Positions 29,301 through 64,000 of a DNA stretch of 64,000 bases are shown piece after piece. The notes below the pieces were generated by a model. That model saw nothing but the letters and a program-made list of their open reading frames with translations. It had not been told where the DNA came from and made no database searches. The DNA comes from Undaria pinnatifida (lineage: Eukaryota; Sar; Phaeophyceae; Laminariales; Alariaceae). The position numbers and the translations under genes are program-made. The stretch spans positions 6,240,222-6,304,221 of the forward strand of contig JABAKD010000007.1 in the NCBI GenBank assembly GCA_012845835.1. Reading direction: 5' to 3'. Positions within the stretch are counted from its first letter, which is position 1. Every line of letters begins with the position of its first letter.

Positions 29301-29376
29301 ATGCGCTTGGCGCGGTTTGCTCTGGGTGTCGGCACCGCGCTCATTTTGGGCCTTTCCGCCCATGCACAGAGTGAAG
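29301..29376 (+). CDS. Exon 1: start codon and signal peptide
   Basis: The ATG sits in a good eukaryotic start context (ACCACCATG). It opens a 25-codon frame with a short basic n-region (MRLAR), a hydrophobic core (FALGVGTALILGLSA) and an A-H-A/Q-S type cleavage site, followed by S-E and one base of a split codon. The donor is gtgagc, leaving phase 1, which fits every exon downstream. This is a textbook secretory signal peptide exon, so the product should enter the ER. The 5' UTR and promoter could not be placed: the preceding 100 bases show no clear TATA box. Exon 1 is not copied in block B, so B extends the existing gene and is not a second gene with its own start. Confidence 0.8.
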
Positions 29377-30962
29377 GTGAGCTCCGACTCGTCGTTGTAA
29401 TGTAGGAGAGGAGTGCTCAATAGAGGCACGTCACGAACTTTTTGTGTTTCTTTTATCATGAGTTACGTCCTTCACTCGAAAACCGATGTGGACGAGAAAA
29501 TAACCACTACAACCGACCATCCCATGACTTAGGTATGCAACAAGAGTAAGAAACAAATTACGTGTGATCTATGACGATTTTGTGTGATGGAGAGCCCCAT
29601 CATGCACACACAATTTCATACGAAGGGTGTTACTTTCATTGTAGATCGTCCTAAGAACATTGTCCAAACATCGACCAGGGATATCGACTTCCAACGGTGC
29701 CTTCCCTGACGGGCGGCGTACCTCAACGGAAATCGTCCTCAATCCCATCGGAGCACCGTTTGCGGTTTGCACCATTATTCTTTGTGTTACTTCTTCCGTG
29801 CATGCGAATGTACGTCTTTCTCAGCGTGGGTGATGCAGTGTATGAAGTATCGCCTCGTGCGTATAACCGTAAAAACAAGGAGGTGCCGCGGCTACAGGAG
29901 AACGCCATAATATCAGAAAGTACTGCTGTACACCACGTACGTGCAAGGGCCTATGAACTGCCTGCGTCGAGCCATTGTATCTCAACCGCAACAACGCACA
30001 TTTTCGATTTTGTTTGGTCGCGGGTCTAGTAGATTACAAATTGATGTAACATTCTGGCACGATGGTTTTGGCTGCCTATTCGAGTTAGGGATGTAGGCTA
30101 TCGTTTAAACGTGCGTACGCTTGAATCTTTATTACGGCCTTTATCGAGTGTTTGTTGAGGTGCCAGTAGTCGTGTCTGCAGTTTTTCTTTTTAAACAACC
30201 TCATTCGTATCTGATAAAAACGCCGCCGCTGCTGGCTACTGCTGACCCGGATCCCCTCTTTTATAGCAACCCCTTGAGGTACACAGCACCAACATTGCAC
30301 CCAACCTTCGACGTGTAGTTGTCAAACGTTCGTGATGAAGGAAACATTGTAAAAACGCCTCGTGGGTCAGAACGATCGTGTCCGAGTGAAACCCTCGCAC
30401 GATCGTTGTGCCGTATCCGCCGTCCGATCGTCGAAATCCGTGCAGGTTGTACATCCAACATTCATTTCATGCATTCGTTGTTACATATATTTCGGGCTGT
30501 TACATCCTCTCATTCGCCTGATATTGTTTCGATGCTTCAATGTCGCATCCCGTGATCTCCATGGCCTGCGGTTGATCTAGGTCGAATTAAATATTTTGAT
30601 CTACCAGCTTTTACCTGCGGGCTATTGTGCCTGATAATTTTACCGTGTATCAACCAAACCCCAGTTGAGGTTTGAGGTTCACGTTTGTTGCGTGTTTAGC
30701 TCATGGCGTTGATCCTCCGGTTTTACGCGCACACGTGTATCACGGTTTTTGAATCATGATGTAGGGTATTGTTATCCCCACCTGATGAACGTACTGACGT
30801 GTTGTATTCCTTTTACAAGGAAAATGACGGCGTCATTCCAGTAAAACGACATGATTATGTCATTTATCATCCAAAAAAAAATGTGACGCCGAACGTGCTC
30901 CTCCCTCTACTTGTGTGCGTTGCCGTTGTGACGTGAATTCGTGCACCGAACGTGCAAAGCAG

Positions 30963-31031
30963 AGTGCGACACGAACGTGGACTGTGACACAGAGTGCTGC
31001 GCGACGTTGTACGATCCACCCATATGTGTCG
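30963..31031 (+). CDS. Exon 2: cysteine-rich module a (five Cys)
   Basis: The exon follows a ...aaagcag acceptor and ends at a gtaagt donor, and is 69 nt, phase 1-1. Joined to exon 1 it reads E-C directly after the signal peptide. Its pattern is C-x5-C-x3-CC-x8-C, with an LYDPPICV ending. It has five Cys, not six: the Cys between the CC pair and the last Cys is missing and the spacing is changed. It may pair its odd Cys with module b, which also has five. Its copy a' at 39725 keeps every Cys. By eye the pair differs at 6 of 69 positions, changing D to Q, V to G and P to S. Confidence 0.75.
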
Positions 31032-32999
31032 GTAAGTGAAACGTGCATATATATGGCGTCGACCAAAACTCGTTCCGTTTGAACAGCATCTGTGTCGGAC
31101 ATTAAGGAGCCATCCCACAGATGGCGTGCAGAAAACATTTCTTGTCTTCTTACGTGAAAAGTTTGTTACCTTACCCGAACCGTGACTCGGAAGATATTCA
31201 CGCGCCACCCGGTCAAAATTTCCATGCTCAGTTTTTGACCAACATGTACCCGTCACAGTGATAGTTTCACATCTAACTACCTGACCTGGTCAGATGTCTT
31301 CGTCGGGACTCTATTTCCAATATCTAAGGAGTCAGGTGTTAGGACAAAGCGTGCCATGGACGAGCGAGAAAATTTTCGGTTAATTCTCTTCTTGCGGACA
31401 GGGCGGGACTCATCATTGAAGCAAATATTCATTATCGACTGAAATATTTATCTGTTTAGAAGACGGTTCGAACTTAAGCCTAGGCCATGCGGTGTCGTTC
31501 TTCCAAGTTTTGCACCCTCGCCAGCCCTTACCTCAGTTGTAATCGTGGTGAGACGTAAAAAACGCTGCGGATGAAGGGCAGCGAACACGTTATATGCACT
31601 GCGGAACCAGCAGATGCATCTGAGGTGGTCCCCTCTACGCGAACGGTTTAATATTGTGATGTTTCTTTGGGCGGTATTGACAGATACAAGTCGAGGGCAA
31701 TGAGCAACGGCTATAATCAGCCACGATAAATCCGCCACTGTTGACGTTTCATTGGTAGCAAGCTGGCTAAAGATTCCTCGATAACATCAGAATTCCCATT
31801 CTTTATTTGGTTTTCCTTGAGCGCACCAGCAAAATGATTATACGATAGCTTCCCCCCCGCTAAAACAAAATATCAATCATATCTAGCGAACGTTTCGTGG
31901 CTGCTCGAGACGAGCAAGGTTGGTATAATATATCATATTTTGTTACTGTTTTCCAAAACGTAACGAACGATGCCGTCGACATGACAAGATACATCCTTCT
32001 TGAGGAGATACAGCCAGTAGCTGGGGTTTCCAAACGGGAAATCCCGTTAACCAAAAGTAAGGCGGCTGCCGCAGAATGTATCAGACGCGCGTCGAAAACT
32101 CCTCACAGTGCTATGGCAGACCATACGTTCCAATGGGCAATCCAGTTTACAGCAAAACGCATTCCACCCATAATGCATGCGTAACCAGAAAGCAGCCAGT
32201 TTGCGCTGCAGCCGAGATATTTCACCGGCTGCCATCCTCTCTCCGTCGTCGACGCCGAAACAAAGTAGAATGGACTCGGTGTCCCCATGCGATTTCAATT
32301 TTCCGACGCGCGTGTAGCCAGCCATACTAACCAGCACGATTGGTTAAATTTATCGTGAGTGAAAGCATACACTATGTGACCTTGCCGTGCGGTGAACCCG
32401 CGGTGTAAAGCAGGCTCAATGTGGCGTTAAGGTTTGTGTATGCGCGGCTACGTAGGACACGTGCCACTTTGAGCACCGGTGTTTCCATGAAACTCCATTT
32501 TTTTTTTTGGGTGCAGCTGCAAATCATATTCAAAACCTTGATGTTGATTCCAATTGGAGGCGCAACACGATGGGCAACCGCATCGCATACGTACACCAAA
32601 ATGCAAAATTGCCGATACAGCGTGACGTTGCGGCAATTTATGTTTGAGGTGTCCAATCCTTTAGATTTCTGAAAAAGAACATGTTAGCACATCGAGTCCT
32701 AGAAAAGAAAGATTTTGTCACACCCCATTGAAATTGTCAACAGTGATATATATTGGCAGTGCGGACATATATATGAAGAATTCCATGAACTTCGGCGAAC
32801 CAATGGCTTTTTATGGATGTCGTCGGACAAGTCGTCCGCGTTCGGCAAAACCACACCGACTTGCAAGAGTCACACTGATACCACTGTATGTGTCAAATGT
32901 CTATGCACACAGTTTTGTTTCGAAAAATATCGCCGGCCTCCAAACACATCAAAATGCGCCGTAAATCTTCATGCTCCTCTCTTTCCTGCGTTAATATAG

Positions 33000-33089
33000 A
33001 ACACAGTTATCTGTACCCCGGAGCGCCGTGCAACACGGAGGATGGATGCGACTGCTACAAAAGGAAGTGCATCAACGGCTTCTGCAAGG
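33000..33089 (+). CDS. Exon 3: cysteine-rich module b (five Cys, divergent)
   Basis: The acceptor is ...taatatag and the donor gtgggt; the exon is 90 nt, phase 1-1. I chose this acceptor over the ACAG seven bases downstream because only this one restores the phase-1 frame and puts all the Cys codons in frame. The module begins with a non-Cys stretch HSYLYPGAP, then C-x5-C-x1-C-x4-C-x4-C. It lacks the CC pair that marks the other modules. Its copy b' differs by only about 3 of 90 bases although the flanking introns differ far more. Together a and b carry ten Cys, so they may fold as one two-exon unit (inference). Confidence 0.75.
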
Positions 33090-33521
33090 GTGGGTCACGC
33101 GAGTTACGATGAGGTTACTACATATATCGTTACACACATTCGATCTATTTGATGAATCTCCTCATGTCAAACGTAGACATACATCAATCCTTTGCGAACG
33201 CGTATCGAAAAGTTGAACATCAGAACGGACTAAGACCGCAATTTGACAAGGGGTAGACTCGCGCGAGTGACCGAAAATCACCTGAAAGAAAAATTCAGAA
33301 GAGAGCGAGTGACACCCCTTCTAATATATCCTAGATGATCCTCAACCCTAACCTTGGCCAGAAACATTCGATACTTCAAATACTTCACGCGTGACAGGGA
33401 GGCCATGTTATGCGTGTGCAAGAAATGTTCCAAACATCTCCTTCAGGTTAAGCTGGAAGACACGTAAGCGCAACGTCCGTAGACATGTTCAATGATACTT
33501 CCGTTTCCGGGTCTGTGGCAG

Positions 33522-33605
33522 GATGCGTAAGGGACAAGCAGTGTCCCGGATCTACGATATGCTGCCCGGACGGGTCTTGCGCCCTAACACTCGAGCTCTG
33601 TAACG
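33522..33605 (+). CDS. Exon 4: cysteine-rich module c
   Basis: The acceptor is gtggcag and the donor gtaaga; the exon is 84 nt, phase 1-1. The split codon gives Gly, then C-x5-C-x5-CC-x4-C-x6-C with the CCPDGSC core. It is the canonical six-Cys module of this gene. The intron to its left (432 bp) is the shortest in the gene. The donor is followed by a GGT-rich tract. An in-frame TGA lies 18 bases past the exon end, so failure to splice would end the protein at once. Copy c' at 42270 keeps all Cys and changes S to D, T to K and E to D in the loops. Confidence 0.8.
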
Positions 33606-33624
33606 GTAAGAAATATTTTTGATG

Positions 33625-33725
33625 TTTAGTGGTAGCGGAGGTGAAAGTGGTGGTGGCCCTGGTAGTTGTGGTGTCGGTAGTAGTTGCGGTTTCGCTAGTA
33701 GTGGTGGTGGTGTTGATTGTGGTAC
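33625..33725 (+). repeat. GGT-rich intron tract after module c
   Basis: Interrupted GGT/AGT/GTG triplets begin about 20 bp after the donor of exon c. The matching tract follows exon c' at about 42376-42470. An in-frame stop lies between donor and tract, so it is not a Gly-rich extension of the protein. Confidence 0.7.
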
Positions 33726-34605
33726 GTACAAGAGGGCAAAGCGCAAATTTACGATTTCCACCGAAAAAATTAGGAATGATCGAGATTATCCTAGTGCTTA
33801 CCTTCATGATGACCCAATTCGACGGTAGGGGAGGCTATGTAAGCAGCTTGTTGGGATTGTTCGCGCATGAGACCTCAGGCTCATTTTCTTTTTTTCTTTT
33901 TCATGCTGTGTGTCCGCGGAATGAATCGGTAATGGATTTGTGAGCTTCGCGGCGCCCAATAGATGGCCAAACTTGGTCTATCGGCGCGGTAAAATCTTTC
34001 GCCCTCGAACGGCCCCAATCCGATGAAGGTGGGTTTGAAGTTGCCCAAACAAACGTAGATGGTGCGGCGTATCGTGCAGTTGTGTGAAAAGGTTTGTTCG
34101 TCGATAACGATCATTTGATGGTGTGACATCCTTTGACGTATGTGTCGATTCCAGAGTGATTCGAGCCGTCCCGTTATGCCGAGCGGGTTTAACCGCGGGT
34201 TCGTAGGAAATAGGTTCCCGCAAAAACTGCTGTACCCGGCATTTAGGGCCAAGTATGTTACGCTTCTGTTCCCAAATATGAGAGCTGTCTCCTTGTAGCG
34301 AGTGGTGTTTGTCGGCGATTACGTACAAAAACAGTTCCCTGTATACATCTGGCGTACCCAGTGCGTGTGTATCATTGCTTCACGGGCTAAGTTGACGCTC
34401 TTGCAGCCTATAAATGCTAGAAATAAACGTATCGGATGTTGATCAGCAAACAGGACGAATCATGATCAGAAATCTGAGCTTCACCCAAAGCACGGAATGG
34501 CACCTCAGACGTAGGTTAGGTTTCCACTCATCACATGCAAACATTGTGTGTTCGCCAACGTCCGCTGTTCATCCCTGGTCTGCAAATTTCATACCTCGAC
34601 GGCAG

Positions 34606-34686
34606 CTTGCGAGGATGACAGCCAGTGCAACGACGACCTGGTGTGCTGCCCGAACGGGGATTGCATCCACGACCTCAAGCTCTGTG
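34606..34686 (+). CDS. Exon 5: cysteine-rich module d
   Basis: The acceptor is gacggcag and the donor gtgaga; the exon is 81 nt, phase 1-1. It reads A-C-x5-C-x5-CC-x4-C-x6-C, with acidic loops EDDSQ and NDDLV and the core CCPNGDC. Its copy d' at 43264 differs at five positions, four of them synonymous and one K to E, the clearest sign of purifying selection among the pairs. The codons are strongly G/C-ending, unlike the flanking intron. Confidence 0.85.
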
Positions 34687-37603
34687 GTGAGATACGCTAT
34701 ACACTATCAATGCTGATGGCGCTATTTAGTTCGTTATCTTTCAAGGGGACAAACTGTACGGGAGCGAACACCTGTCCCAGGCAAGGAAATGCAACACTGC
34801 AAAAATGACGGGAATGCATCACGGGGGGGTCAAGCTCACCTGTGGACCGTTTACGTTAGTGCCAAACTCAACTCGTGTATCGACTGGCCCAAGAAAATAT
34901 CACGATGACATGAAAAGTTTTAAACAATCAGATAACTCTAGCTCCATAGCGTGATCGAAAAGGCACCGAACGATCTAAGAGGGCACCAATAAGGGGTTAC
35001 GTTTGAGCGGTAGAGGACGATTTGGAAAAGAAGGGCGCATCAAAGGGAAAGCTCAGCGCAGTAAAGGGGAGAGAAACTAGGTCAAATTGTTCGTATACCA
35101 ATTGTTCCAGATGGGAATTTACGTATATTACCACGGACGAAGAAATGCGGCAAAATTATTCAAGCATTTTTTCTGTGTGAGGGACCTGAACTTGCGAGAA
35201 AGGAAAACCAGTTACCTCAGTCGTCGAGCGGAGGTGTGAAAATGGCGCACTGCATTACCCTTATGATGACGCATACGATGTTAGAACCAGATAGATAGAG
35301 TGGGATAATGTGAGCATTACTACAATAAATAACGAAAAGTGAACACGGAAGCTGTGGGGGAAAAAGTCCGATGTAAAGTGTAGAGGTTCATTTTGGTACG
35401 TAACGTAGTGGCGGGAAGACGCTCGCAATCCTATGAACAAACACCGAGTCGGCCGTATGGCAAGGGAAACGTTAGTAGTACACACACCGGGGAGCGGGAG
35501 AATGTGAACAATAAAACTCATTGCGGACGACATTCGAGGAAAATGGCGGCATAGGCGGACAGAGCACAGTAAATAGTTGGGAAGTGAAACTGTTTACCCT
35601 AGAAGATAGATGGTGGCCACAAGCAGTCAGGAAGGATCAAAGTAACAGGAATGAAAATACATTAACGAAATAATCAGACGAAAGGTAATGATCCCAATTG
35701 TTTTCGTCCTTCTTCGGAGTAACAATGGGTACCCGTCTACAATGGCATGTGCGCGGTTATTGGTCAAATATCTAGGGCAAGCAGAAAATGAAATGCACTT
35801 CTAATCGGCTTTCATGCCGCTTCCCTCCCCCTACCTCAAACGGGAATGACCGGTTTGCATGAGATTCTTCATCACGAACCACCTACTCCACTCTTGGTCA
35901 CTTTACGAAGCGGAGATCCCCGCTCTTCCAGTATTAAGTCGGGACATCAACGCGCATTTTACGTTTCGTGTTTACGATTCACATTGATAACCTTTGCCAG
36001 AGGTTAGCTGTGATTGCAGTATTTGGCTGATCTCCATCAGCCTTGCCAACCAGAACCTCCGTGGTAATGACTAGTCAATATATCACCCGCTTTGTTCTGC
36101 ACCGTAACGGAATCAAGTTTTCACGAAAAATCCTCAGCATACTAGTGCTACTCAAATTGGGATAGATACTGGCAAGCGAATGGTGCTTGAACCCGTTCCC
36201 CTGTGTAGCATCGAAATGTTGATTGTCCACCCACCGCCAAGAACCCTGTGGGTGAATTTCGCGACGGACCAAATAAGTGCACATCGAATACTTTGCTCCG
36301 CATGCGTCATACTTGCATAGTTCAGGCTAGAAAGCGCACTTTACAGGTGATGAAGACGTGTATGTTTTCGACCCTCGTTGTCAACAACCCGGAACCGATC
36401 TAGCAACGTGGTTCAGCCATCAGTGTCCGTAGCGGACTCGTAGACGACATACAGACGGGGTCGCGTTGAACACTATCTCGGTCGACACTCTTTATCGTTG
36501 GTACGTTGAACAGAAGGCATGTTACAGGTCGATCTGCAACATGTGGACGGAACCGGTCACGTCGAACGTGTACTCTGTGCTTGCGCTTCGGCGTGACTCC
36601 CTGTACTTAGTTTGTCCAGATCATAGCTGACCTGTTGTCACAATGGGTAGCTACTGTTGTTGTTACATCATTGTCACGGAGAGACGTGGCGCTGCATATT
36701 CAAAAATGTCCATTATTACGCGGGCTTCTTCGAAAGGTGAATATGACGCCTGCTATGGTCCGCATTTCATAAATGTTGTATATAATGGTCCGATCAAGCC
36801 TGACTATGAGAAAAAAAACATAATCCGTCTCTACACCGATCAACAGTCACCTTAGCCAGATATAATATACTTGTTTGTAGAAACCCTTAATCGGATTTGA
36901 ACAACATAATAATGGGTTGTTTGGTCTCGTTGAGAACATACATCAGCCACGAATTGTTTATCCCAGTAGAACTTGATCACCGGCGCGTTCTACGATAAAG
37001 GTAGCGTGTCGTTAGGCTGAAGAAATTAAGTCAAAACTACGCTCCTTACCCCAATGTGTCATTTTGATGTTGTTGTTGTTTCCTAATTCGATTGGATGCA
37101 TACATAGGCCATTGTACTGCATACCGGGCGCACAACTATATTTGTATTCGTTCAAAGTTTTGGTGAGACACGAAGCTGTTAAACGGTGAAACTTCCGAAC
37201 ATATTTATGGCGCCTTGACCGCAGGGCGCGCCCGATCCCTCGATAAAACCTAACGTTGTTTGACGGGCACACCTGGCTGTGGCTGTATGCACCAGGAGTC
37301 GATTGATACCCAAAATTGATTTTCAGTCGTGTCTCGTCGTTTGAACAACTAACGGTGCCTTCCTTTCTCCTCGTGCACGAATACATCGCCTCATGTACGA
37401 ATCGTACGTGTGAGACCTCAAACGCCTGCTTCTCTGTGTGCAGGCGATCTTTCCATTACGTTAGCCGCCTAATGATACCCAACCACAAGACTGTGGGATC
37501 TACGAACATGACCCGTGGTCCATAATTTCTTAGTATCCTCGACGTCGAGGTCATACATGGTTCCGTATGTTGCACCCCGCGTGCTTTAACTCGTTGTTTG
37601 CAG

Positions 37604-37687
37604 CTGGATGCGAGAACGACGACGACTGCCCGGAAGATTTGTTCTGCTGCCCTGACGGAAGTTGTATCCAAGAACCCGAGCACTGCG
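37604..37687 (+). CDS. Exon 6: cysteine-rich module x (single copy)
   Basis: The acceptor is ttgtttgcag with a good pyrimidine tract, and the donor is gtgagc; the exon is 84 nt, phase 1-1. It reads A-G-C-x5-C-x5-CC-x4-C-x6-C, with ENDDD and PEDLF loops and a CCPDGSC core. It is the only module in the window without a second copy. It lies between duplicated blocks A and B and most resembles modules e and e'. It may mark the original gene downstream of block A before B was inserted, or a relic of a different duplication. Confidence 0.83.
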
Positions 37688-38742: not shown

Positions 38743-38794
38743 GGTCTAGTCTAGTAGTTTACCCATTAGGTCTAGTCTAGTAGTTTACCCATTA
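38743..38794 (+). repeat. Exact 26-bp tandem duplication in block B
   Basis: Two perfect copies of a 26-base unit beginning GGTCTAGTCTAGTAGTTTAC. Block A has only one diverged version near 30025, so this duplication is younger than the A/B split. Confidence 0.9.
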
Positions 38795-39724: not shown

Positions 39725-39793
39725 AGTGTCAAACGAACGGCGACTGTGACACAGAGTGCTGCGCGACGTTGTACGATCCATCCATATGTGTCG
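39725..39793 (+). CDS. Exon 7: cysteine-rich module a' (copy of a)
   Basis: The acceptor is gaaacgcag and the donor gtgagt; the exon is 69 nt, phase 1-1. It has the five-Cys pattern C-x5-C-x3-CC-x8-C of module a, with loop changes (QTNGD for DTNVD, PSI for PPI). The upstream intron keeps recognisable similarity to that before a, marking block B as a duplicate of block A. All five Cys are kept, so the missing sixth Cys is ancestral to the duplication and not recent damage. Confidence 0.75.
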
Positions 39794-41744: not shown

Positions 41745-41834
41745 AGAACAGTTATCTGTATCCCGGAGCGCCGTGCAACACGGAGGATGGATGCGACTGC
41801 TACAAAAGGAAGTGCATCAACGGCTTCTGCAAGG
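41745..41834 (+). CDS. Exon 8: cysteine-rich module b' (copy of b)
   Basis: The acceptor is aaattcag and the donor gtgggt; the exon is 90 nt, phase 1-1. It begins E-N-S-Y-L-Y-P and keeps C-x5-C-x1-C-x4-C-x4-C. From the first Cys to the donor it is identical to b at the DNA level, and only three bases near its start differ. Flanking intron similarity is clearly lower. This supports strong constraint or local conversion of this exon. Confidence 0.75.
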
Positions 41835-42269: not shown

Positions 42270-42353
42270 GATGCGTAAGGGACAAGCAGTGCCCCGGAGA
42301 CACGATATGCTGCCCGGACGGGTCTTGCGCCCTAAAACTCGACCTCTGTAACG
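42270..42353 (+). CDS. Exon 9: cysteine-rich module c' (copy of c)
   Basis: The acceptor is gtggcag and the donor gtaagc; the exon is 84 nt, phase 1-1. It keeps G-C-x5-C-x5-CC-x4-C-x6-C and the CCPDGSC core. Compared with c it has D for S in the second loop, K for T and D for E in the last loop, all between Cys residues. The GGT-rich intron tract after the donor is also duplicated. Confidence 0.8.
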
Positions 42354-43263: not shown

Positions 43264-43344
43264 CGTGCGAGGATGACAGCCAGTGCAACGACGACTTGGT
43301 GTGCTGCCCGAACGGGGACTGCATCCACGATCTCGAGCTCTGTG
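43264..43344 (+). CDS. Exon 10: cysteine-rich module d' (copy of d)
   Basis: The acceptor is ctacggcag and the donor gtgaga; the exon is 81 nt, phase 1-1. It encodes A-C-x5-C-x5-CC-x4-C-x6-C, identical to d except E for K in the last loop. It is the last exon of block B; block C1 starts about 270 bp downstream. The following intron (621 bp) is among the shortest in the gene. Confidence 0.85.
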
Positions 43345-43965
43345 GTGAGATACGCTATGCATTAACGGTGCTGATGAACCATTTGGTTCGTAATTAAGAT
43401 AAACTGTACGCAAGGCAAACAAAGGCACTAACCAGAGGAAAACCCAACACAATACAATGGTGAAAAAGCATCACGTTTAATTGAAGCTTACCTGTGGAAC
43501 GCTTATGTTCTTATCAGCTTCTGCATCGAATGGTCCACGGGAAGAACACGGTGCCATAAAATATTTCAAGCAATTAGATAACGCTGCTTCCATAGCGTGA
43601 GGGAAAACGTACATGATGATGCTATGATGGTGTTACGATGATGTCATGATGATATTGCCCGCCTTTATGTTGTGGTGTTTGCACCAATCCCGTGATCGAC
43701 TCCTCACTTCACTGACAATACTTATTTAGGCCATCCTGTTAAACTAGCGCATGTTGCCATTCCATTCAGGATTCGTATCGAAAAAAAACAACATCACCAG
43801 GGGTTGATAACCCTACAAGGAACGGGGGTTACCTCTGCCGGTGTCACCAAGCCATCGCAGATATAAAAGCGCCAGCAGTGTGATCTCCGTACCGTAGCCT
43901 GGGTTCACATGATGTTTTACTAGGTTTGCAACTACTTATCAATCGAATATCAATCCGCTTTGCAG

Positions 43966-44049
43966 AAAGCTGCACGAACGACGGCGACTGCGGTGACGGG
44001 CTATTTTGCTGCCCGGACGGAAGTTGCGTCAAAGATCTGGAACTGTGCG
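43966..44049 (+). CDS. Exon 11: cysteine-rich module e
   Basis: The acceptor is cgctttgcag and the donor gtgagg; the exon is 84 nt, phase 1-1. It reads E-S-C-x5-C-x5-CC-x4-C-x6-C, with TNDGD and GDGLF loops and a CCPDGSC core. Beyond the donor the frame stays open for about 65 codons, to 44246, and includes further Cys. Read-through of this donor would therefore give a longer tail, but the clean donor and the uniform phase argue for splicing. Copy e' is at 55325. Confidence 0.83.
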
Positions 44050-45689
44050 GTGAGGACTGTAAAACCTTCCCTGCATTGATTCCATGCGATAAGGACCAAC
44101 GCAATTTTCCAGGGCAAACCCCAGCTCGCGGCTACGGCAAGGCAGGTTGTTTAGGGATGACAAAGTCGGCGGCACACAGCGACCCTGGCAACGCGCTAAC
44201 CATGCGGTTTCCGGTAGATATTTTTCCATCGCCGTTGTGGAATTAGTCTCTGGTTTTCAACTAACATGTTCGTGTTTAAAGGTTGTTTATGGTGGTGTAG
44301 GCGGGTCATGCCCTTGGGTGGTGTGGATATCAGAGGGACCGAAAATGGGGCTATCTGCCGTGTTGAGGTCTTGACCAGGCGGATTTGTCTGCCGTACGCA
44401 TTCATTGAAAATTGCTACCTGCTGCACAATGTATGAAAAACCTGCCTACACGAAATATCACACAAAGATTGCGATTACGAACGTTGCCGAATTTTTGACG
44501 GGGAACAACTAGCCTGTATGCCACAAAATACTTACACCAATGGCATGTACGATCGCTTTCATCGGCACCTTGGTTTAGTTTAGCGAGTTTTTGTTGCAAA
44601 CCGCAACGTAGTTATAGTTGAACAGGAGTCATATCCTTCGGTGTTTCATTGGGTAGAAAGCATGTTCGACATCATCGACGCGACAACACCTAGTTTGAAG
44701 TGTTTGGTTCCTCAAAAACTTTTTCAGGCCTTTACTACGTAAATAGTCTGAAAATGCCATGTGTTTGGTCACTTGATTTAACCTCGTTCGTTTTGTACAA
44801 TAAACATTTCATGCCACGTGAAGATGCGAAATATCCAGAGCGTGGTATGTGTACCATATTCCAACACTTTAATTTGGGATGTCTCACGGCAACTTGGCTG
44901 ACTAAGGGACTTCTTATTAAACCAAAATCGTACGAATGTCAACAATTTCGCACAATCATTTCCTGTGTACACCTACGTCAAGCAATTCTTCGCCGAGATG
45001 CACCCCACCTCCAATTTGGTTGTGGTTGAGCCAGACAAAGGTATCACGTTGAAGCATAATTAGTTTGTGACTGAGGGGGCCCCTCAAACCAAACCCGTGG
45101 CAGTTCCAAGATATATTGGGCACAATCGAAAGTTTGAATGCCTCAGGTATCATGAGTCTTCTCATCGATATGCATTTCTGATTGTTTCATTCAAGCGATT
45201 TACTTTAGATAAAACATAGAGCTCTTCAAGGGCCACAGCGGGTATTTGCGATTTGTTTAAGTCTTACGTACAATATACCTCGGGTTCGCTCCACGGTCTT
45301 GCATGATCACCAGAATCGCCTATATCGATCATCCACGGTTTGTGTGTTTTTATTTACCGCAGTACATACATCTAGTAGATAAACCTAAGCCTCCATCCCC
45401 GGAACGCCTGTAACCTCCGACTGTTGCGACTGTTACCAGAATTGCTATAGCGACGATCACAACTGGTGGTTACGAGCACGTGTGATGCCAAAACGGGCTG
45501 TGAGTTGAAATGCCATTCTCTGTTATGAGAAACCCTCTTGATTTGTCTTATCATTTTTTCCGCTGATCGACAGCCCAGCGCACACAGCATAACGGCACAC
45601 AAGGGATATCAAACTTTGGTTTCCTATTGCCGTTTTCCGAGCTTTAGAACCGAGATCCACAAATATATTTTAAGGTTTTCTCAACCTTC

Positions 45690-47578: not shown

Positions 47579-48048
47579 CTGAAATACTCGGATATTATGG
47601 TGTACGGCGAGGCATGACAATGCAGCTCCTGAACAATCAGTGCAAGACGCATACAAATGCAAAGTCACAATATTTTACCCCTGGATTATCTGTGCAAGTT
47701 GTTACGGTCGAGCTGCGCAACGTCGCCCAACGAGCACACAAAACAATAAAACATCCAATGCAAAATTGCTATTCCTCCTTCACCTGTTGTGTCATTTGAT
47801 GACACCTTCCACCCAGTGGTATCCCTGTTGTTTCCCATTGAGCGGCTATCATCGCTCCATACATTATTGCGGATAATGGGGCAAATTAATACATACAAAC
47901 GTTACACATACAAATATATACACTTAACGACGTTACACACGATTTTCCGTTAGTAACCCAATGCCCCTTTGACATATGCAAATATCAACTGAGCGAATTA
48001 AGCACAGCTTTCCCTCGCCGAATGATCGCTCCTGCTAACTGTTTACAG

Positions 48049-48132
48049 ATTGCAGGGAAACGGGCTACTGTCTTAACGGGCTCATATGCTGCGACATCGA
48101 CGGGAGTTGTGTTACGGACGAGCAGTCATGTG
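48049..48132 (+). CDS. Exon 12: cysteine-rich module f
   Basis: The acceptor is ctgtttacag and the donor gtgagg; the exon is 84 nt, phase 1-1. It reads D-C-x5-C-x5-CC-x5-C-x6-C: one residue longer between CC and the fifth Cys (DIDGS), while keeping D-G. The linker to module e is a single Asp. The upstream intron is 4.0 kb, about 1.9 kb of which is absent from the equivalent intron of C2. Copy f' is at 57489. Confidence 0.82.
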
Positions 48133-50418
48133 GTGAGGAACATTGGGCATTCACATGTGGTGCGGGGACACTTGTCTTACGTCGCATCACAGACGACCGA
48201 ACACATCGAAGCAACAGCAAGTGACGAGTGCTGCGCGGCGTACCATAGTAGGTGGCGCTACATGGTGGTTGGGTTTGTTGCTGATTCGCTGATAACGTGT
48301 ACGGTAGATTTGAACGTAAATCGGGCAGATGGCGGAACATTAAGCGCAGTAGAGAAACGCAGTTTGAGCCTCGATTGCAAAGGTTATACCCATTGGCGGA
48401 AGCCTTTGACCACCGCCGACGAAGCGTGTACCAGTCTGAAATTCATCATGCGATTCATGTGGAATCTGAAGTGGTCCATAAATGACACAGGAGAACAACC
48501 GCGTTCTTGAAAGCTGCTATTCTACGACATAAACTCACAGTATTCAAAACGAGTTGAAAGAAAAGTATACAGCGCGCAAGTAACCGGGATGTGCACACAG
48601 ACCAACCCAGGCCACCTCGTAGCTACCTTCGACCGGAGTAGCAAGAAACCCATGCAGGTACAAAAATGCTACGATTGTAGAACATAAGCTGTACGATCAA
48701 CGGCCTCTTTTGACCAGGGCTATTAGCCACGCCGATGCATGTACAAACCCGGAAAAAATCGAACATTACGCTATGACTGCCCCTCAAAATACAGATGCGG
48801 CAACGAGGATACCTTCATATTCTCGGTCGACTTTTCCCCTCCCCAAATCCCACACCAGAACATATTTTATTTGTAGTCTCAGATTTGACGTTTTCCGTAG
48901 CTCCTCAAAACTTTTGTTGGTTGACTCATGTCTTCCACAAACCGCGTGAATGACGCCAAGCCGAAAACTTTGAACCTTGTTACCGTTAGGGCTCCTGAAA
49001 ATGAGCGGCATTGTCTCGTTTTGACAACGACAAACTTCGGTAAGTACAACGCCTCAAAGTGGAGGGGAGGACCTCTATTGAAGACCAGATATAGCCCGAT
49101 CTGAAGCTCACAGCATCGGTGGATGAAAACGTTATGAGACACTCGTGTAGCGTGACTCTACGGCATGAACAAGCCGAAGTTAAATTCGCAGTATGTTCGT
49201 CAAGTCACCTTTATCACTGTTCCAATGTAACATGCGAAAATCAAACTACCGGAAACCCCGGGACAGGAGGACGGTTTGGAGCCCCCGTGACCTTTCGTAT
49301 GCCAAGCATCATCAATTTCGTCTGTGCCTAATCGTTTGCTAAGATTGTGTTATGTTGCATGGCTAGTCAACTGATTTCCGTGTCGAAAAGTCCAATCGTA
49401 TTTGAGAGGAAGCTTAGCATTGCGAATAACGGTGTTCGGATGGAAACATTTGTAGTAGTTGTATGGTGGAGTTCAGGAGTCCTTCCGTGGTGAGGGTGTG
49501 GCGGAGGACTCTGACCGCGTTGCATGAGGAGCTCAATATCTAGCCCGGCACATGCCTTCGAAGGCATTCTCTCGCGCAATGCGAACAACCTTTCTGCGTG
49601 CGAGTCCTGAAAAATAGTCCCTTAAACATGTCAGAAAAACCATAAGTTCCTCTATTTACGTGATTAAACGGCCAGGGACGTCGACCAAAAAAGTGCAAAT
49701 ATATTGTTTGATGGTTTTAGGGTGGTACGTGTTGAACGACGGGTTCCCGTCTGGGTTGTACATTTTGGGTCATCGAGCAACGCAAACATCATAGTAATGC
49801 GTAGTGTCCATAGACCAAACACTGTCGGTAATATCTTGGAGAGACGGCTCATAGCGGCCAGCGCTCACCACTAGGCGGTGAGGAACGCCCTCATGCTTTT
49901 GTTGGTCGAGTCAAAACGTGTCCATTGTTGGACTTAATACAATGTAAGCCATTCTCGAGTGGGCAGCGTTCTGGGTATGCCTATGTCACGTGCCTCATAT
50001 CTAGCTCAACAGGTTTGACTTCCAAACTGTGGAATGTGAGATGACCAGGGCGCTAATTTCTTCATGTTTTTGGTTTACTGCATGACGGGGCTCAATACCA
50101 CGATCTCTAACACTATTGTTCAAATTCTCCAAAATGTTCGACTATATGTCTAGGCGATGAAATCTCTGGTGAGGGAGTGATTTTCTGCTTCCCTATGAAA
50201 TACCTTTTTAGGCGTGGCACAGGGATTTTCGAGTGACGGCCCTCCCAGCGAAATATTTTGGTCTGTTTCGTAGCCGATGTATAAATATGTCGATTGATCC
50301 GTGTCTATCGAACGCTGCGGCCCCTCGAGGCACGATCCTCTACATCAGGTACACGATGAGAATCACGCGACTGCACTTCCGTTGGGGTTCATATGTGATG
50401 GCCGAATGGGACATATGT

Positions 50419-50555
50419 TATAAAAAATGAAAATACACTCCAGCTGTGAGATCGAAGATTTTGTCGAAACTCGTCTTTGCAAGCTGTGTGTGATACCCTG
50501 ATCGCGCGTATTACGGGTTGTTTGTCCTCATTAAGGACATAGGTCGGCGATTCCC
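50419..50555 (-). repeat. Short copy of the TGTATT-ended repeat family, inserted in C1 only
   Basis: A 137-bp copy, sense on the minus strand, containing only the shared terminal part of the family. It is flanked by AATGGGACATATGT on the left (50405-50418) and AATGGGACACATATGT on the right (50556-50571). The C2 paralogue has a single unoccupied site, AATGGGGCATGTGT, at 59894-59907. This defines the insertion exactly and gives a target duplication of about 14 bp. Confidence 0.85.
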
Positions 50556-52614
50556 AATGGGACACATATGTGAATGACCCCGTACCTTGGGTTCAGGGGG
50601 TTTTGAGCCCATTAACGTTGTATAAAGAGTGTTGTCCCTGGTGTATGTGACATAAACTATAGCGGGGGGTGTCGATTAACACCACTTGTGGCTGAAAGTG
50701 CGTTTTGTACGCACCAGTGCTACGGCGATGGGGAGGCCCCCCAATATACACCCGGATTTAGCAACTCCCCCAAGGGAATATACATCGCTAACATGCCCAA
50801 CTTAGTCGGATTTCTTCGCACAGTATAGGCAGCTATTCCAGTGATGATTGAAATCCCAACATTTTGTGATCGCGAAGCAAATGACCGGACAGGAACAGGC
50901 GAAAGACTAGCACGAGGATCCCAGGGCCACTATATACGGGTTCTCTATAGTGACCTCCCCACCGTAGCTTCGGTGTACAGTACAGATTCGCGTTGCTTCT
51001 TTGTGTTCAAAAAGCGACTTACGGTTGGATGTTCGCGATCAATGCATTGCTGCATATTGTAGGGAAACTACCAAAAAGTGAAGGTTATTATACAACGGTT
51101 CTCTCGGGCTTAAAACGTCCTGTGCAGCGTTGTGCCGCACAGCAGCGCTGTTGTCGAAACACTCAATCCCACCATATCACTGGGGATACGCAATTAATCG
51201 TGGTGCGAACATGCTTCGGTTTGAAGCCAATCATCCTTCGTGAAAAACGTTCTAAACTATTCTCGATGTTATACATACATCATGCACATATTTCGCAGTT
51301 TCCTGAACCTTCTCATCCGACACTATTTCCAGAAATATAGTCGCGGCAGGGGTGTGGCATCAACCCCTGAGCTCCTCACATGAGTAACTCAACATCTTAC
51401 ATAAAAAGTATTTTTCCCAAGAGGCATTTATTCGCACGATCCGACCATACCGGTTGGCCTTGCTTCTAAAATAATAGGTACTCGAGCGTGAAAGAGCTTT
51501 GTTTTCTGGCAGTTCATCTCGTGAAGAGCTCAACCGCTCAAGGAATTTTTTGGCCAGAACCATGCAATCCCTACCGTCGGATAACTCATGAGTAAATACA
51601 GTGTAGTATCGATACGCAAGGCGTTGTCGACCCCGGCCCGCGAAATTAATGGACATGAGCCATTCCACAGAAAAGGCAAAGAAGAACGTTCCGGAGCTCT
51701 CAAGGTGAGGAGCTCGTTGTGTCACCCAAAGAATGACGTCGAACGCATTCGTTCGCAACGCCTGACCAAGCTTTTATGCCGTAGTCCCGAACAAAAATTA
51801 CTCGTGCGAAATTTTGACTGACCGGTAGTTCCTCTCGTGAGAGGCTCAAAATGGGTCAGGGACGTTGTTGATAGAAACGTACGAGCCCTTCCGTGACATG
51901 GCTAAACCAACAACGCCTTAGTGCGAACGACCCTCTTTAAGGCGCACAATTGCTCCCGTTCCACTTTGTCGCCTTCCGTTCGCTGCAAAAACATAATGAT
52001 GGACATGTAACAAGTAGGATTTGATTCGGTTGGACACAAATATCAGACGTGTCGTCGTACGAGCGAGATAGTTGAGGATACGATACCAGCCGTCTGCGTT
52101 TTCAACGATATATGCGCGTCACAAATATATCAGGAGGGTACACATTTTTTTGCGATAAGAAAAAGGTACGGAGCTCTTACGGGATAGGCTCAGATGTATT
52201 CGAACTATCTTTCAGTCACAAGTGCTCTTAGACGGTTGAGACCCCATACTAAAGTAGATTGTACTCCCTCTACCCTTTCGTTTTCGCACCTTCTGACAAA
52301 TAATTGACAGATTTTGGGGTTGTCTCGATGGAGTAGCGATGCGGATGTGCAAGGCTCTCAAGCTGTACTCATATTTTGGGCTCAAACGGACGCTTCGTCT
52401 GTCAGACGGCGATATCAACTAATACCTTTTTAGGGGTAGGAATCACAGTTTAGCACCAAATTCGTACATGGTCGCCCCAAAACAAAGTTGTGCGTACTTA
52501 CTTTGTTATTCTTTCCCTCTCAGATATTGTTGGTTCTAACATGTACACACGCGTGTCGTTTTGTATCGGCTTCCAACCACGCCATGGTATAACGTATATG
52601 TATGTTCTCAACAG

Positions 52615-52704
52615 GAATGTGTGAGGACCACGAGGACTGCACAGTTACAGCTGGTTATGCATGCTGCGAGGACGGCTATTGTGTCAGCTCCATCGACCCA
52701 TGTG
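52615..52704 (+). CDS. Exon 13: cysteine-rich module g
   Basis: The acceptor is ttctcaacag and the donor gtaaga; the exon is 90 nt, phase 1-1. It reads G-M-C-x5-C-x7-CC-x4-C-x6-C, with a second loop two residues longer than usual (TVTAGYA) and a CCEDGYC core. It is the most divergent pair: against g' six of eight base differences change the amino acid, but all Cys are kept. Its upstream intron (4.5 kb) carries the retroposon insertion at 50.4 kb. Confidence 0.82.
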
Positions 52705-53099
52705 GTAAGACGCGCAAATGTTGACGGTTATGGTCTTTTCGTCCATGATATATTGCACGGGGTGTCATTGCCAAAGTTCAGTGCTCTGTGGTGACTGTTG
52801 GAGTCATAAATCGTTGAACGCGATTCCAATATTCATTGATTGGTTGGAACATGCTGTAAAACCCAACACGTCTTTGGCGATTCTGTAAATGTAGGAATAG
52901 AAGCCGCGTAGTTTATTACATGGTCCCCGCAACAACGTACTTTACTTTCGTCGTAACAGGCCATTCCCTCTTCACGCACGTCATCGAACCGCGGGTAGAG
53001 ATAATGAACCGCGACGCAAACAATCGTGCAGGCGACCAAGTTGAGGTGTCAAACTTGGACTTTTTTTTCGAGATACCACGAGCTTCGAAATTTAAAAAA

Positions 53100-54612
53100 T
53101 GTCTGTCAAGCATTCCAATGCGTGCATCTTCTGTCTTCATCCACTGAGCGTACGAAATAGGCACCTCGTAGTATGCAGGGTGCAGATGAGACGCATAATC
53201 CTGGGAGTTTGGCTCGTGAACGAGGCAAACCGTTCACTCCCACGATTAGTGCTTGGTTCAAAGCGCAGCTGATCCGACGCTGGTTTGAAAAAAATCGCAA
53301 AGAAGGCATGAAGGACGCGTGCTGCGATACCTGAAGCACTTTTTGGCAATTTCTTTTCTTAACGACGGGGCTCCTTATCCAAAAAAATTCAAACATAGAC
53401 CTTCTATTTGGCATGATTCTCGTGGTGTACCTAAGTCATGATATTTTTAAATGTAGTTGCATTGTGATTTTTCCTCCAAAACAGACTTTGAGACAAGTCT
53501 TGAGCTATTAAGTTGAGGAACTTCGGCACAAAAAGTGGTGCACCTCAATCGTATCACTCGTCGAAGGTCGAGAATATCACAATGCCCTCAACTCCCGTAT
53601 ATCACGTTTCTTGTTTTGATATAAGCGACATCTTGACGCTATGGCTTTCGGTTGTGACCACAGGTGTAGATTCATTCATTCTAAACACACAAATCGTACA
53701 GTTTGCTATACAGTATTTGCCTCACTGGCAAGATTTGCAATGTATGATGTACGAGTCGGGCCCAGCGTATTCCTAGTTTCATACTTTCCACTCTCTAAAA
53801 TCACATGAGTTCCTGCCATAGTTTCATACCTTCCGAGATACACCGCTGACCACGGAGATGGTACGAGGGCAACCCCATTCTCTCTACCGGGCTGGCGCCT
53901 CGCGAAGGTGCCTGTTTACCTATAGCTGGCGCTAAACGTTAGGCCCTCTTCGTGTACAACGTAGACTACCGCTCACATGCGCGTTCGTATCGCACATAAA
54001 TAAACCATCACAAAAGCTAAACATCGAAAGGGAGGAAAGGCGTCACTAGATCCAGTGACCTCGAGTCGCTGCATAGGACATCACCAACAATGCCGCCCAA
54101 CAAATAAAAATGCCAACCTCCTGCGTGGCGTTGACCTGCATGGATTATTGGCATTCCATGATGTAGAGGTTGGGACATCACCCACTCCAGGTGTTTTTAT
54201 CCGGTGGTATGATTGTCGTCTCATGGAAGGGTTGGTTTTCTAAGGACAGACGCCTTTGATCCCCAAGTATTGTGCACCACATTTCGATCAGCAAAAAGCC
54301 TCCCAACAAAAGGAGCTGAAAACATGACCTTGTGGACCCAAAAGGCGGATTACGAGATGCTACCGGAAGAAACCTCCATTGTGGTTTCGATAAACAACAT
54401 GAATCACAACAACAATAAAGTCACCCTTTTCCGACGACTTCTGGATGAAGGAGCCTTGTGATTTAGAAACCGTGTTTCCGACGAAACCTGCTGCCTTAGT
54501 CTCGTACCAGCTGTAGACCTATCGTATATTACGATTTTTGCGAGTAATTTTGTTTTTGAACTGTTGGCATTAAAAGCGCACGTAAATGATGATCTGGTTA
54601 CGCTAGCGAAAG
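53100..54612 (+). repeat. Near-identical tract shared with 62500-64000 (C1 member)
   Basis: From about 53100 rightward C1 matches C2 almost perfectly (isolated mismatches and a 6-base gap near 54105), whereas the 200 bases just to the left differ at many positions. The change is abrupt and lies inside an intron. Open frames of 60 to 87 codons occur here on both strands, but the few differences change amino acids freely, so they are not credible genes. Confidence 0.75.
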
Positions 54613-55324
54613 TCTCCGAAATCATTTTTCGGGTGGGATGGTGAGCTCCCGGTGTTAGCAGACAAGACGTGTTTGCTGCTCCCTCACCGAATGGTGAATT
54701 GTCAGTGATTAATAGTTTCAGCGGCATTGATAATTCAGTAGTATTCATAAAGTGCAGAGGGCGTTACGCGTACTGAGGGTTTCGTGGTCAAAGGGATCGG
54801 TTTTGTTTCAGGCAGTGTATGCTCCGTGTGCACTGTTTCGGGCCACTCTCATCATGGGTTGAACTTCACTCCGTACATATTAATAGTTGGGCATAACCCC
54901 AACGCGTCCACACTTCGCTTATCTCTTCCTGTCGGATATTAATGCCTCCATAGCGTGATTGAAACAGTATATGATGATGCTATGATGATGTTACGATGAT
55001 TTCATGATGATATTGCCCCCCTTGATACTGTGTTGTTCGCGCCAATCGCTTGAGCGGCTCTTTACCTTATTAACTATACTTATCTGGGCCATCCTGTTTA
55101 ACTAGCGCATCTTGTCATTCCATTCCCGATTCGTATCGAAAAACGACAACATCACCAGGAGTTGATAACGCCAAGGACAACAGGGGTTACCTTTGCCAGT
55201 GACACCAAGCCAGCGTAGAAATACAAAGCGCCAGCGGTGTGATCTCTTTACCGTAGCCTGGGTTCACATGATGCCCTCCTAGGTTTGCATATACTTATCA
55301 ATCGAACATCAACCGGCTTTGCAG

Positions 55325-55408
55325 AGAGCTGCACGAACGACGACGACTGCGGTGACGGGCTATTTTGCTGCCCGGACGGAACTTGCGTGAAAGATCTGGA
55401 ACTGTGCG
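55325..55408 (+). CDS. Exon 14: cysteine-rich module e' (copy of e)
   Basis: The acceptor is ggctttgcag and the donor gtgagg; the exon is 84 nt, phase 1-1. It has the same Cys pattern as e, with D for G in the first loop and T for S before the fifth Cys, plus two synonymous changes. It lies about 360 bp inside block C2, the same offset as e in C1. Read-through of the donor would stay open only to 55512, much shorter than in C1, so a conserved read-through product is unlikely. Confidence 0.83.
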
Positions 55409-57488: not shown

Positions 57489-57572
57489 ATTGCAGGGAAA
57501 CAGGCTACTGTCTTAACGGGCTAATATGCTGCGACATCGACGGGAGTTGTGTTACGGACGAGAAGTTGTGTG
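57489..57572 (+). CDS. Exon 15: cysteine-rich module f' (copy of f)
   Basis: The acceptor is ctgtttacag and the donor gtgagg; the exon is 84 nt, phase 1-1. It encodes the f pattern C-x5-C-x5-CC-x5-C-x6-C, with changes only at the end of the last loop (K-L for Q-S) and two synonymous changes. The upstream intron is 2.1 kb, against 4.0 kb before f, because the C1-only 1.9-kb segment is missing here. Confidence 0.82.
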
Positions 57573-61898: not shown

Positions 61899-61935
61899 TT
61901 GTTGTTGTTCTTCTCACATTCAATCGCATAATCAC
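61899..61935 (-). repeat. 37-bp stub of the (CAA)n-tailed retroposon, C2 only
   Basis: TTGTTGTTGTTCTTCTCAC and the following ~18 bases match the tail end of the repeats at 1363, 5165 and 21788. The matching C1 site near 52535 lacks it (ACATGTACACAC continues directly). A short ACAT duplication may flank it. It is a copy reduced to its 3' tip, inserted after C1/C2 duplication. Confidence 0.7.
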
Positions 61936-62008
61936 ATGTACACACCCGTGTGGTTTTGTGTCGGCTTTCAACCTGCCCATGGTTAACCTGTATGTATCGT
62001 CTCAACAG

Positions 62009-62098
62009 GAAAGTGCGAGGACCACGAGGACTGCACAATTAAAGATGGTTACGGATGCTGCGTGGACGGCTATTGTGTCAGCTCCATCGACCCATGTG
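62009..62098 (+). CDS. Exon 16: cysteine-rich module g' (copy of g)
   Basis: The acceptor is gtctcaacag and the donor gtaaga; the exon is 90 nt, phase 1-1. It reads G-K-C-x5-C-x7-CC-x4-C-x6-C with a CCVDGYC core. This is the last exon visible. The donor shows that the protein continues, and the 1.9 kb that follows matches the intron after g, which contains no exon before e'. The next exon is therefore expected to the right of the window. Confidence 0.82.
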
Positions 62099-62499
62099 GT
62101 AAGACGCGCAGGGGTTGACGGTAACTGTGTTATTCTTCCATGGTAGATTGTACAGGGTGCCATTGCCATCGTGCAGTCCTCTCTGGTGACTGTTGGAGTC
62201 GTAAATCGTTGAACGAGGTTCCGCTACCCATTGATTGGTTGGAACATGCTCTCAAACCTAACACGTCTGTGGCGATTCTGTAAATGTAGGAATAGAAACC
62301 GCGTAGTTTACTACATGGTCCCCGCAACAACGTACTTTACTTTCGTCGTAACAGGCCATTCCCTCCTCATGCCCGTGATCGAACCGAGGGTAGAGATGAC
62401 GTATTGCCACTTGAACAATCGGTCCAGTGACCTAGTTGGGCTGTCAGACCTGGACTTTGTTATATGTATACCACGAGCTTCGAAATTTATAAATGTCTC

Positions 62500-64000
62500 T
62501 AAAGCATTCCAATGCGTGCATCTTCTGTCTTCATCCACTGAGCGTACGATGTGGGCACCTCGTAGAATGCAGGGTGCAGATGAGACGCATAATCCTGGGA
62601 GTTTGGCTCGTGAACGGGGCAAACCGTTCACTCCCACGATTAGTGCTTGGTTCAAAGCGCAGCTGATCCGACGCTGGTTTGAAAAAAATCGCAAAGATAG
62701 CATAAAGGACGCGTGCTACGATACCTAAAGCACTTTTTGTCAATTTTTTCTCTTAACGACGGGGCTCCTTAACCAAAAAAAATCAAACATAGACCTTCTA
62801 TTTAGCATGATTCTCGTGGTGTACCTAAGTCACGATATTTTTAAATGTAGTTGCATTGTGATTTTTCCTCCAAAACAGACTTTGAGACAAGTCTTGAGCT
62901 TCTAAGTTGAGGAACTTCATCACAAAACGTGGTGCACCTCAATCGTATCACTCGTCGAAGGTCGAGAATATCACAATGCCCTCAACTCCAGTATATCACG
63001 TTTCTTGTTTTGATATAGGCGACATCTTGACGCTATGGCTTTCGGTTGTGACTACAGGTGTAGATTCATTCATTCTAAACACACAAATCGTACAGTTTGC
63101 TATACAGTATTTGCCTCACTGGCAAGATTTGCAATGTACGATGTACGAGTCGGGCCCAACGTATTCCTAGTTTCATACTTTCCACTCTCTAAAATCACAT
63201 GAGTTCCTGCCATAGTTTCATACCTTCCGAGATACACCGCTGACCACGGAGATGGTACGAGGGCAACCCCATTCTCTCTACCGGGCTGGCTCCTCGCGAA
63301 GGTGCCTGTTTACCTATAGCTGGCGCTAAACGTTAGGCCCTCTTCGTGTACAACGTAGACTACCGCTCACATGCGCGTTCGTATCGCAAAAAAATTAACT
63401 ATCACAAAAGCTTAACATCGAAAGGGAGGAAAGGCGTCACTAGACCCAGTGACCTCGAGTCGCTGCATAGGACATCACCAACAATGCCGCCCAACAAATG
63501 CCAACCTCCCGCGTGGCGTTGACCTGCATGGATTGTTGGCATTCCATGATGTAGAGGTTGGGACATCACCCACTCCAGGTGTTTTTATCCGGTGGTATGA
63601 TTGTCGTCTCATGGAAGGGTTGGTTTTCTAAGGACAGACGCCTTTGATCCCCAAGTATTGTGCACCACATTTCGATCAGCAAAAAGCCTCCCAACAAAAG
63701 GAGCTGAAAACATGACCTTGTGGACCCAAAAGGCGGATTACCAGATGCTACCGGAAGAAACCTCCATTGTGGTTTCGATATACAACATGAATCACAACAA
63801 CAATAAAGTCACCCTTTTCCGACGACTTATGGGTGAAGGAGCCTTGTGATTCAGAAACCGTGTTTCCGACGAAACCTGCTTCCTTAGTCTCGTACCAGCT
63901 GTAGACCTATCGTATATTACGATTTTTGCGAGTAATTTTGTTTTTGAACTGTTGGCATTAAAAGCGCACGTAAATGATGATCTGGTTACGCTAGCGAAAG
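62500..64000 (+). repeat. Near-identical tract shared with 53100-54612 (C2 member)
   Basis: C2 partner of the homogenised tract, running to the window edge. It lies in the intron after g'. No exon-like Cys-rich frame flanked by splice sites was seen in it. Confidence 0.75.

Follow-up and report, generated by a model that had tools for sequence, protein, structure and literature searches.

Secreted chains of tandem disulfide-rich domains have been described in several systems. The SCREPs, in the sections of PMC6262176 available, are secreted, Cys-rich proteins with tandem disulfide-rich domains in a "combinatorial domain repeat"; the class is defined by architecture and not by descent, its members carry up to 8 chitin-binding or 12 Sel1-like repeats, and the inhibitor cystine knot (ICK) lies outside its 20 commonest folds. 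In the spider toxins DkTx and Hc1a and in a remipede double ICK, one to three tandem knottins follow a single signal peptide, and duplication and unequal crossing-over have altered these multi-ICK toxins (parts of PMC13172734 and PMC9950431). Mussel mCRP-I also has tandem knottin arrays of the order C-C-CC-C-C in one secreted precursor (PMC10138031, in part), and octocoral colipases are made mostly from multi-domain secreted precursors of colipase folds (PMC11896702, in part). Here we describe an array of short Cys-rich exons in a 64,000-nucleotide stretch of the Undaria pinnatifida genome (assembly GCA_012845835.1, contig JABAKD010000007.1, positions 6,240,222 to 6,304,221 of the forward strand), hereafter the window. 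We read the array as probably the 5' portion of a single intact gene that grew block by block. Its product would be a secreted, disulfide-rich chain with 11 knottin-like beads and presumed ten-Cys domains, each formed by an A and a B exon.

The initial annotation had proposed 15 GT-AG exons of 69-90 bp, all of phase 1-1, that give 441 open codons behind a signal-peptide exon. These exons were recovered independently, 3' of exon 1, when the entire window was scanned for open stretches of phase 1-1 that have an acceptor, a donor, and 4 or more Cys, and were then joined; the remaining listed stretches, on both strands, were judged by eye to be chance frames. The length of each module exon is divisible by three, all introns are of phase 1, and their lengths range from 432 to 4482 bp. 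Joined, exon 1 and the 15 module exons yield 441 codons without a stop and with 86 Cys. Seven exon types follow the signal peptide (SP) in the order SP-ABCDE-ABCDEFG-EFG (supporting analyses in parentheses):

29301..29376, + strand: exon 1, signal peptide MRLARFALGVGTALILGLSAHAQSE, with CCACC before the ATG and the phase-1 donor gtgagc (sequence rule)
30963..31031, + strand: exon A1, five Cys (C-5-C-3-CC-8-C), first half of a presumed ten-Cys domain (exon scan, joining, block comparison, Cys spacing)
33000..33089, + strand: exon B1, five Cys (C-5-C-1-C-4-C-4-C), second half of the presumed ten-Cys domain (exon scan, joining, block comparison, Cys spacing)
33522..33605, + strand: exon C1, six-Cys knottin-like module (exon scan, HMM, joining, block comparison)
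34606..34686, + strand: exon D1, six-Cys knottin-like module (exon scan, HMM, joining, block comparison)
37604..37687, + strand: exon E1, six-Cys knottin-like module, older paralogue of E2/E3 (exon scan, HMM, joining)
39725..39793, + strand: exon A2, copy of A1 (exon scan, pair comparison)
41745..41834, + strand: exon B2, copy of B1 (exon scan, pair comparison)
42270..42353, + strand: exon C2, copy of C1 (exon scan, pair comparison)
43264..43344, + strand: exon D2, copy of D1 (exon scan, pair comparison)
43966..44049, + strand: exon E2, six-Cys knottin-like module, modelled with AlphaFold2 (exon scan, AlphaFold2, Foldseek)
48049..48132, + strand: exon F1, six-Cys module with a C4-C5 loop of 5 (exon scan, Cys spacing)
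52615..52704, + strand: exon G1, six-Cys module with a C2-C3 loop of 7 (exon scan, Cys spacing)
55325..55408, + strand: exon E3, copy of E2 (exon scan, pair comparison)
57489..57572, + strand: exon F2, copy of F1 (exon scan, pair comparison)
62009..62098, + strand: exon G2, copy of G1, the last exon in the window (exon scan, pair comparison)

By sequence, every one of the 15 module exons lies between phase-1 introns; for G2, the downstream boundary is given by the donor site only, with the next exon beyond the window. The right edge of the window falls inside the second E-F-G copy, so that 441 codons and 15 module exons are a lower bound. A hidden Markov model (HMM) of the six-Cys modules has 11 strong matches in the window, the next best having E 0.75. 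The six-Cys pattern, with loop ranges fixed post hoc from modules already seen, has 11 occurrences over all six reading frames of the window and none in 60 dinucleotide shuffles. One point against the gene model is the weakness of the A1 and A2 acceptors (A1 has a weak pyrimidine tract); they are nevertheless backed by their duplication with the frame conserved. The predicted splicing of the exons into one chain is supported by the splice sites and phases, but not proven.

The copies within the array were made as multi-exon blocks, not as single exons:

29656..34983, + strand: duplicated block A-B-C-D (second copy 38387-43630, identity 70%, shifted by about 8.73 kb)
43585..54612, + strand: duplicated block E-F-G (second copy 54943-64000, aligned in three segments with 81-85% identity, ended by the window edge)

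Each copied block carries several exons together with long introns, and the copy of the E-F-G block is offset by 9.3-11.4 kb. Exon 1 is outside the copied sequence, which begins 280 bp downstream of it at 29656. Recent copies of one exon type are 80-96% identical and different types 23-57%; E1 is 57% identical to E2/E3, its match to them is about 100 bp long and hardly extends beyond the exon, and by this comparison it is older than these two copies. The expectation that phase symmetry makes the module exons duplicable is borne out insofar as phase 1-1 holds throughout, but the copies seen are whole blocks rather than single exons. A possible mechanism is unequal recombination within introns: with phase-1 introns and exons that are multiples of three, it would copy the ABCD or EFG block and keep the frame, and the chain would be lengthened by such block copying under purifying selection. 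Within the E-F-G duplication, segment 52539-54612 is 93.6% identical to 61934-64000 (locally 99-100%), compared with 78-84% in the other segments. Gene conversion or a more recent exchange would explain this difference, and an artefact of assembly is a further possibility.

The exons have diverged less than the blocks that carry them. Over the seven pairs of recently copied exons, 37 of 582 bases are different and indels are absent, while aligned differences across the whole blocks reach 24.7% (A-D) and 15.3% (E-G); the exons have fewer differences than the rest of the blocks in both cases (Fisher p 1.4e-19 for A-D and 2.2e-5 for E-G). By an approximate count for the same seven pairs, differences per site are more frequent at synonymous (14/109) than at nonsynonymous (20/452) sites (p 0.0026); addition of an eighth, older pair (E1, E2), excluded from the main count, gives p 0.00013. 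Conserved segments, defined by 60-column windows with identity of at least 92%, number five in the A-D block, of which four are exons A1, B1, C1, and D1 and one is non-exon. The E-G block is less favorable: of its 15 conserved segments, three hold exons (E2, F1, and G1) and 12 are non-exon. Thus, conservation clearly singles out the exons in the A-D block only, and the contrast is weaker in E-G. The open exons, their shared phases, their block copies, and this constraint are established observations; the exons evolve like coding sequence, probably under purifying selection. Separately, a non-exon segment at 33378-33445, in the intron 5' of C1, has 95% identity between the block copies, near the exon level; a role in splicing or regulation is conceivable.

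The claim that every exon carries one Cys module of the consensus C-x5-C-x5-CC-x4-C-x6-C stands for most of the array. Types C-G, 11 of the 15 module exons, have six Cys in the order C-C-CC-C-C with loops of 5, 5-7, 0, 4-5, and 6; the consensus is exact in 7 exons, and 4 more have one loop changed (x5 in F, x7 in G). All 11 have a C5-C6 loop of 6. The claim does not extend to A1, A2, B1, and B2, which have five Cys each with spacings different from the six-Cys consensus. Because both A and B have an odd number of Cys and form an ordered pair in both copies, the Cys patterns suggest that A+B is a single ten-Cys domain split by an intron. Counted in this way, with each of the two A+B pairs as one domain, the chain probably consists of 13 domains, not of the 15 modules first annotated.

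We consider it quite likely that the six-Cys bead is a knottin. In the 11 six-Cys exons out of 15, the Cys order and loop lengths are those typical of knottins. An HMM of the 11 modules compared with PDB has 26 matches at E up to 10, led by squash trypsin inhibitors and engineered knottins (the top six at E 0.026-0.035), together with one weak LDL-receptor match (E 1.1). An AlphaFold2 model of one bead, E2 with 10 paralogues, has a mean pLDDT of 80.4 and a pTM of 0.36. The Foldseek search with this model returned 39 matches at E up to 10, among which, going by their names, 20 are squash-type inhibitors or knottins derived from them, ICK peptides of spiders or cone snails account for 9, and two are Dickkopf chains; EETI-II superimposes at 1.0 A across 23 columns. 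EETI-II and MCoTI-II are the closest PDB neighbours of the bead in both sequence and fold. Squash trypsin inhibitors are single-domain plant inhibitors. The first Cys (C1) of the bead aligns to the second Cys of EETI-II, a frame shift by one Cys that may be read as resembling a circular permutation.

Several results weigh against the knottin assignment. None of the 39 Foldseek matches is significant (best E 0.64, none below 0.001). No Pfam cut-off is reached by the whole chain, A, B, A+B, or any of the 11 beads. Matches to ICK-peptide Pfam families, found for 3 of the 11 beads at 9.6-17.3 bits, are below the cut-offs (Conotoxin I-superfamily, 17.3 vs 23.2; Toxin_12, 11.8 vs 21; Toxin_22, 9.7 and 9.6 vs 25), and 7 of the 11 beads match Pfam WAP (PF00095) at 12.6-17.7 bits vs the cut-off of 20.8, the best being C1 (E 0.0044) and C2 (E 0.0053) over profile positions of about 15-35 of 41. 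The F and G beads match neither the WAP nor the ICK Pfam families. Thus, the profile search proposed for the module consensus gave a divided outcome: squash inhibitors and knottins lead in PDB, but no Pfam cut-off is reached and Pfam weakly favours WAP. The latter would agree with the six-Cys modules being shortened WAP domains in which the first Cys pair has disappeared; the protein would then be a protease inhibitor or an antimicrobial protein of multi-WAP-like build. The C-x5-C-x5-CC core is common to the beads and WAP. We consider this reading improbable. A WAP domain requires eight Cys in four disulfides, and the beads have six; none of the 11 reaches 20.8 bits; and no WAP-named entry is found among the 39 fold matches. 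The WAP C5-C6 loop is shorter than the 6 residues present in all 11 modules. By Cys number, score, and fold matches, WAP membership was therefore dismissed. Two other matches under their cut-offs, to Pfam Tt1219-like (E 0.0092, 16 bits vs 27) and NCBIfam TraA (E 4.7), were taken as chance.

The A+B pair invites comparison with another fold. Both pairs share with Dkk1 CRD2 and colipase (PDB 3s2k_C and 1eth_B) a count of ten Cys, a CC at positions 3-4, and a CxC at 7-8. In the sequence, this likeness is one of Cys order alone. Neither A nor B, separately or joined, has a Pfam match at cut-off, as noted, and A+B has two, unrelated, matches in PDB (E 2.4 and 2.6). The score of A2+B2 against Dkk2 is reached by 2 and that of A1+B1 by 14 of 1000 full shuffles, and the likeness to Dkk1 and colipase is unremarkable in shuffles. 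Nor is similarity to colipase or Dickkopf supported by hhalign, which gives a probability of 0.5%. Four other adjacent module pairs are reached against Dkk2 by 6-13 of 1000 shuffles, so that A+B is unspecific in this respect. Similarly, Cys-preserving shuffles reveal no likeness of A or B to the knottin profile past the Cys positions, and homology of A/B to the knottin beads was left unsupported. The bead profile itself matches Dkk/colipase with a probability of 2% over 14 columns. The match of the Dkk1 N-terminal half to the knottin profile, reached by 1 of 400 shuffles, comes from one of seven queries and is not used as evidence. B alone was modelled with a pLDDT of 71.6 and has five weak fold matches, four of them to small venom peptides.

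There are also structural differences: the C6-C7 and C9-C10 loops are far longer in the colipase/Dkk CRD fold than in A+B, and the A and B halves lie on separate symmetric exons, unlike the colipase and Dickkopf domains compared. On the basis of structures, the colipase and Dickkopf domains have been proposed to go back to the doubling of a subdomain also present in ICK proteins (PMC6078440, in part). It is conceivable, though doubtful, that the gene keeps or re-created the step from a single knottin-like subdomain to the two-subdomain colipase/Dickkopf fold. If so, the A/B half-domain exons and the knottin exons C-G, which stand in the same array, could shuffle together. Were A+B a colipase-type domain split at the subdomain boundary, the proposed origin of the fold would become testable in gene structure, beyond protein structure.

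Further properties of the chain bear on its function. By a rule requiring an ATG, 18-40 codons, a hydrophobic core, and a phase-1 GTRAG donor, exon 1 (ATG context CCACCATG) is the sole signal-peptide-like exon on the + strand of the window, in agreement with the initial annotation; on the - strand the same rule finds one locus with two starts and without a cleavage-like site. The 418 residues past residue 23 contain 20.6% Cys and 92 Asp/Glu and have a pI of 4.05 and a net charge of about -72 at pH 7, which bears out the description of the chain as acidic with about 20% Cys. The tight spacing reported for the beads was also recovered: the 12 linkers between presumed domains are each 1-2 residues long, and the A-to-B junction, which is longer, lies within one presumed domain. 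Dibasic sites are confined to the two B modules and absent from all 12 linkers. Such an acidic, presumably uncleaved chain would present many similar small rigid faces and could thereby gain avidity for an extracellular partner or surface. By analogy with the studied two-domain SCREPs (PMC6262176, in part), we tentatively suggest a multivalent extracellular binder or scaffold. Nothing in the analysis indicates a toxin.

The same features have to be weighed under other explanations. A structural or calcium-binding matrix protein of a cuticle, shell, egg case, or extracellular matrix, with the beads as stiffening units and the acidic C1-C2 loops as sites for calcium or mineral, would account for the net charge of about -72 and the density of Asp/Glu, for the Asp-rich C1-C2 loops in several types (D, E, and G), and perhaps for the weak LDL-receptor match. 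No Pfam family of that kind was matched, with no calcium-motif search made, and we regard such a role as unlikely, although less so than cleavage of the chain. Release of single knottin peptides for venom, defence, or signalling from a polyprotein precursor, of the sort from which octocoral colipases mostly derive (PMC11896702, in part), fits the signal peptide followed by knottin-like units; it is made very unlikely by the strongly acidic composition and by linkers of 1-2 residues without dibasic sites.

Other explanations concern the gene rather than its product. The array may comprise several genes or alternative cassettes, with splicing of exon subsets into isoforms of varying bead number. 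Any module exon can be skipped with the frame intact and the introns are long, but a single signal-peptide-like exon is present on the + strand; no search was made for terminal exons with a stop within the array. We give this arrangement a minor but appreciable chance, and exon-skipping isoforms as such may be compatible with any functional reading, that of one intact gene for a multivalent chain included. Finally, an artefact, either Cys-rich frames arisen by chance or a pseudogene array in decay, is hardly credible given the absence of the pattern from 60 shuffles and the constrained exons free of indels and stops; for the exons as coding sequence, it is largely refuted.

Compared with the described systems, the predicted one-gene chain stands out mainly in its exon layout and its A+B pair. 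The SCREP description (secreted, Cys-rich, tandem repeats, 20-500 residues) applies to it, with 418 residues in the window and copies 80-96% identical, and the locus fits this class; the functionally studied SCREPs in the available sections of PMC6262176 have two domains, whereas the chain here has about 13 and its array continues past the window. The unusual part is the one-exon-per-knottin layout. In the spider Hc1a gene the whole mature toxin is in the third exon and was doubled inside it (PMC13172734, in part), while in the present array a separate phase 1-1 exon encodes each knottin-like bead; no relationship of the locus to the spider and remipede toxins (PMC13172734; PMC9950431) is claimed. 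The mussel mCRP-I arrays are all in the fourth exon, exon duplication or shuffling was deemed not plausible by the authors, and the C5-C6 loop is 3-5 compared with 6 here (PMC10138031, in part). The octocoral colipase genes have five exons and inter-domain cleavage sites, and the sections available do not mention knottin beads with them; loss of exon 2 yields a peptide minus 6 of the 10 Cys, so that this domain is apparently exon-split too (PMC11896702). In animals, exon shuffling has class 1-1 modules, those with phase-1 introns on either side, as its standard units (PMC8001218, in part).

The described multi-knottin genes compared here grow within a single exon. This locus shows another route: each of its 11 knottin-like beads has an exon of its own with phase 1-1 boundaries, the copying went by blocks, and the exons are constrained. 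Searches of open-licence PMC text brought up no account that we recognised of such a protein or of arrays with one knottin per exon. Of the initial remark that no named protein with this layout is known, the exon layout remains the unusual part, and by architecture the chain fits the SCREPs. A query of joined C1-D1-E1 had no match in a phage collection; 9 viral and 41 genome contig stretches fit its peptide pattern and none was confirmed, a eukaryotic relative not being expected there.

In the rest of the window, no tRNA or Rfam match was found, and 10 of the 135 listed open reading frames, compared with Pfam, yielded no family at cut-off. A 206-codon stop-to-stop frame at 20070-20690 has protein-like composition and no Pfam match. 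The GC content of the window is 46.5%, and the CpG observed/expected ratio is 1.02-1.10, with no sign of methylation-driven CpG depletion. The left part contains dispersed repeats, some of them inverted (8636-8991, 11465-12084, and 14966-15561; 1376-1745 and 21789-22157), which are perhaps mobile elements. Simple repeats include a 27-copy ACA repeat at 5478-5558, poly-G tracts at 3678-3755, and a GGGT repeat at 46108-46178.

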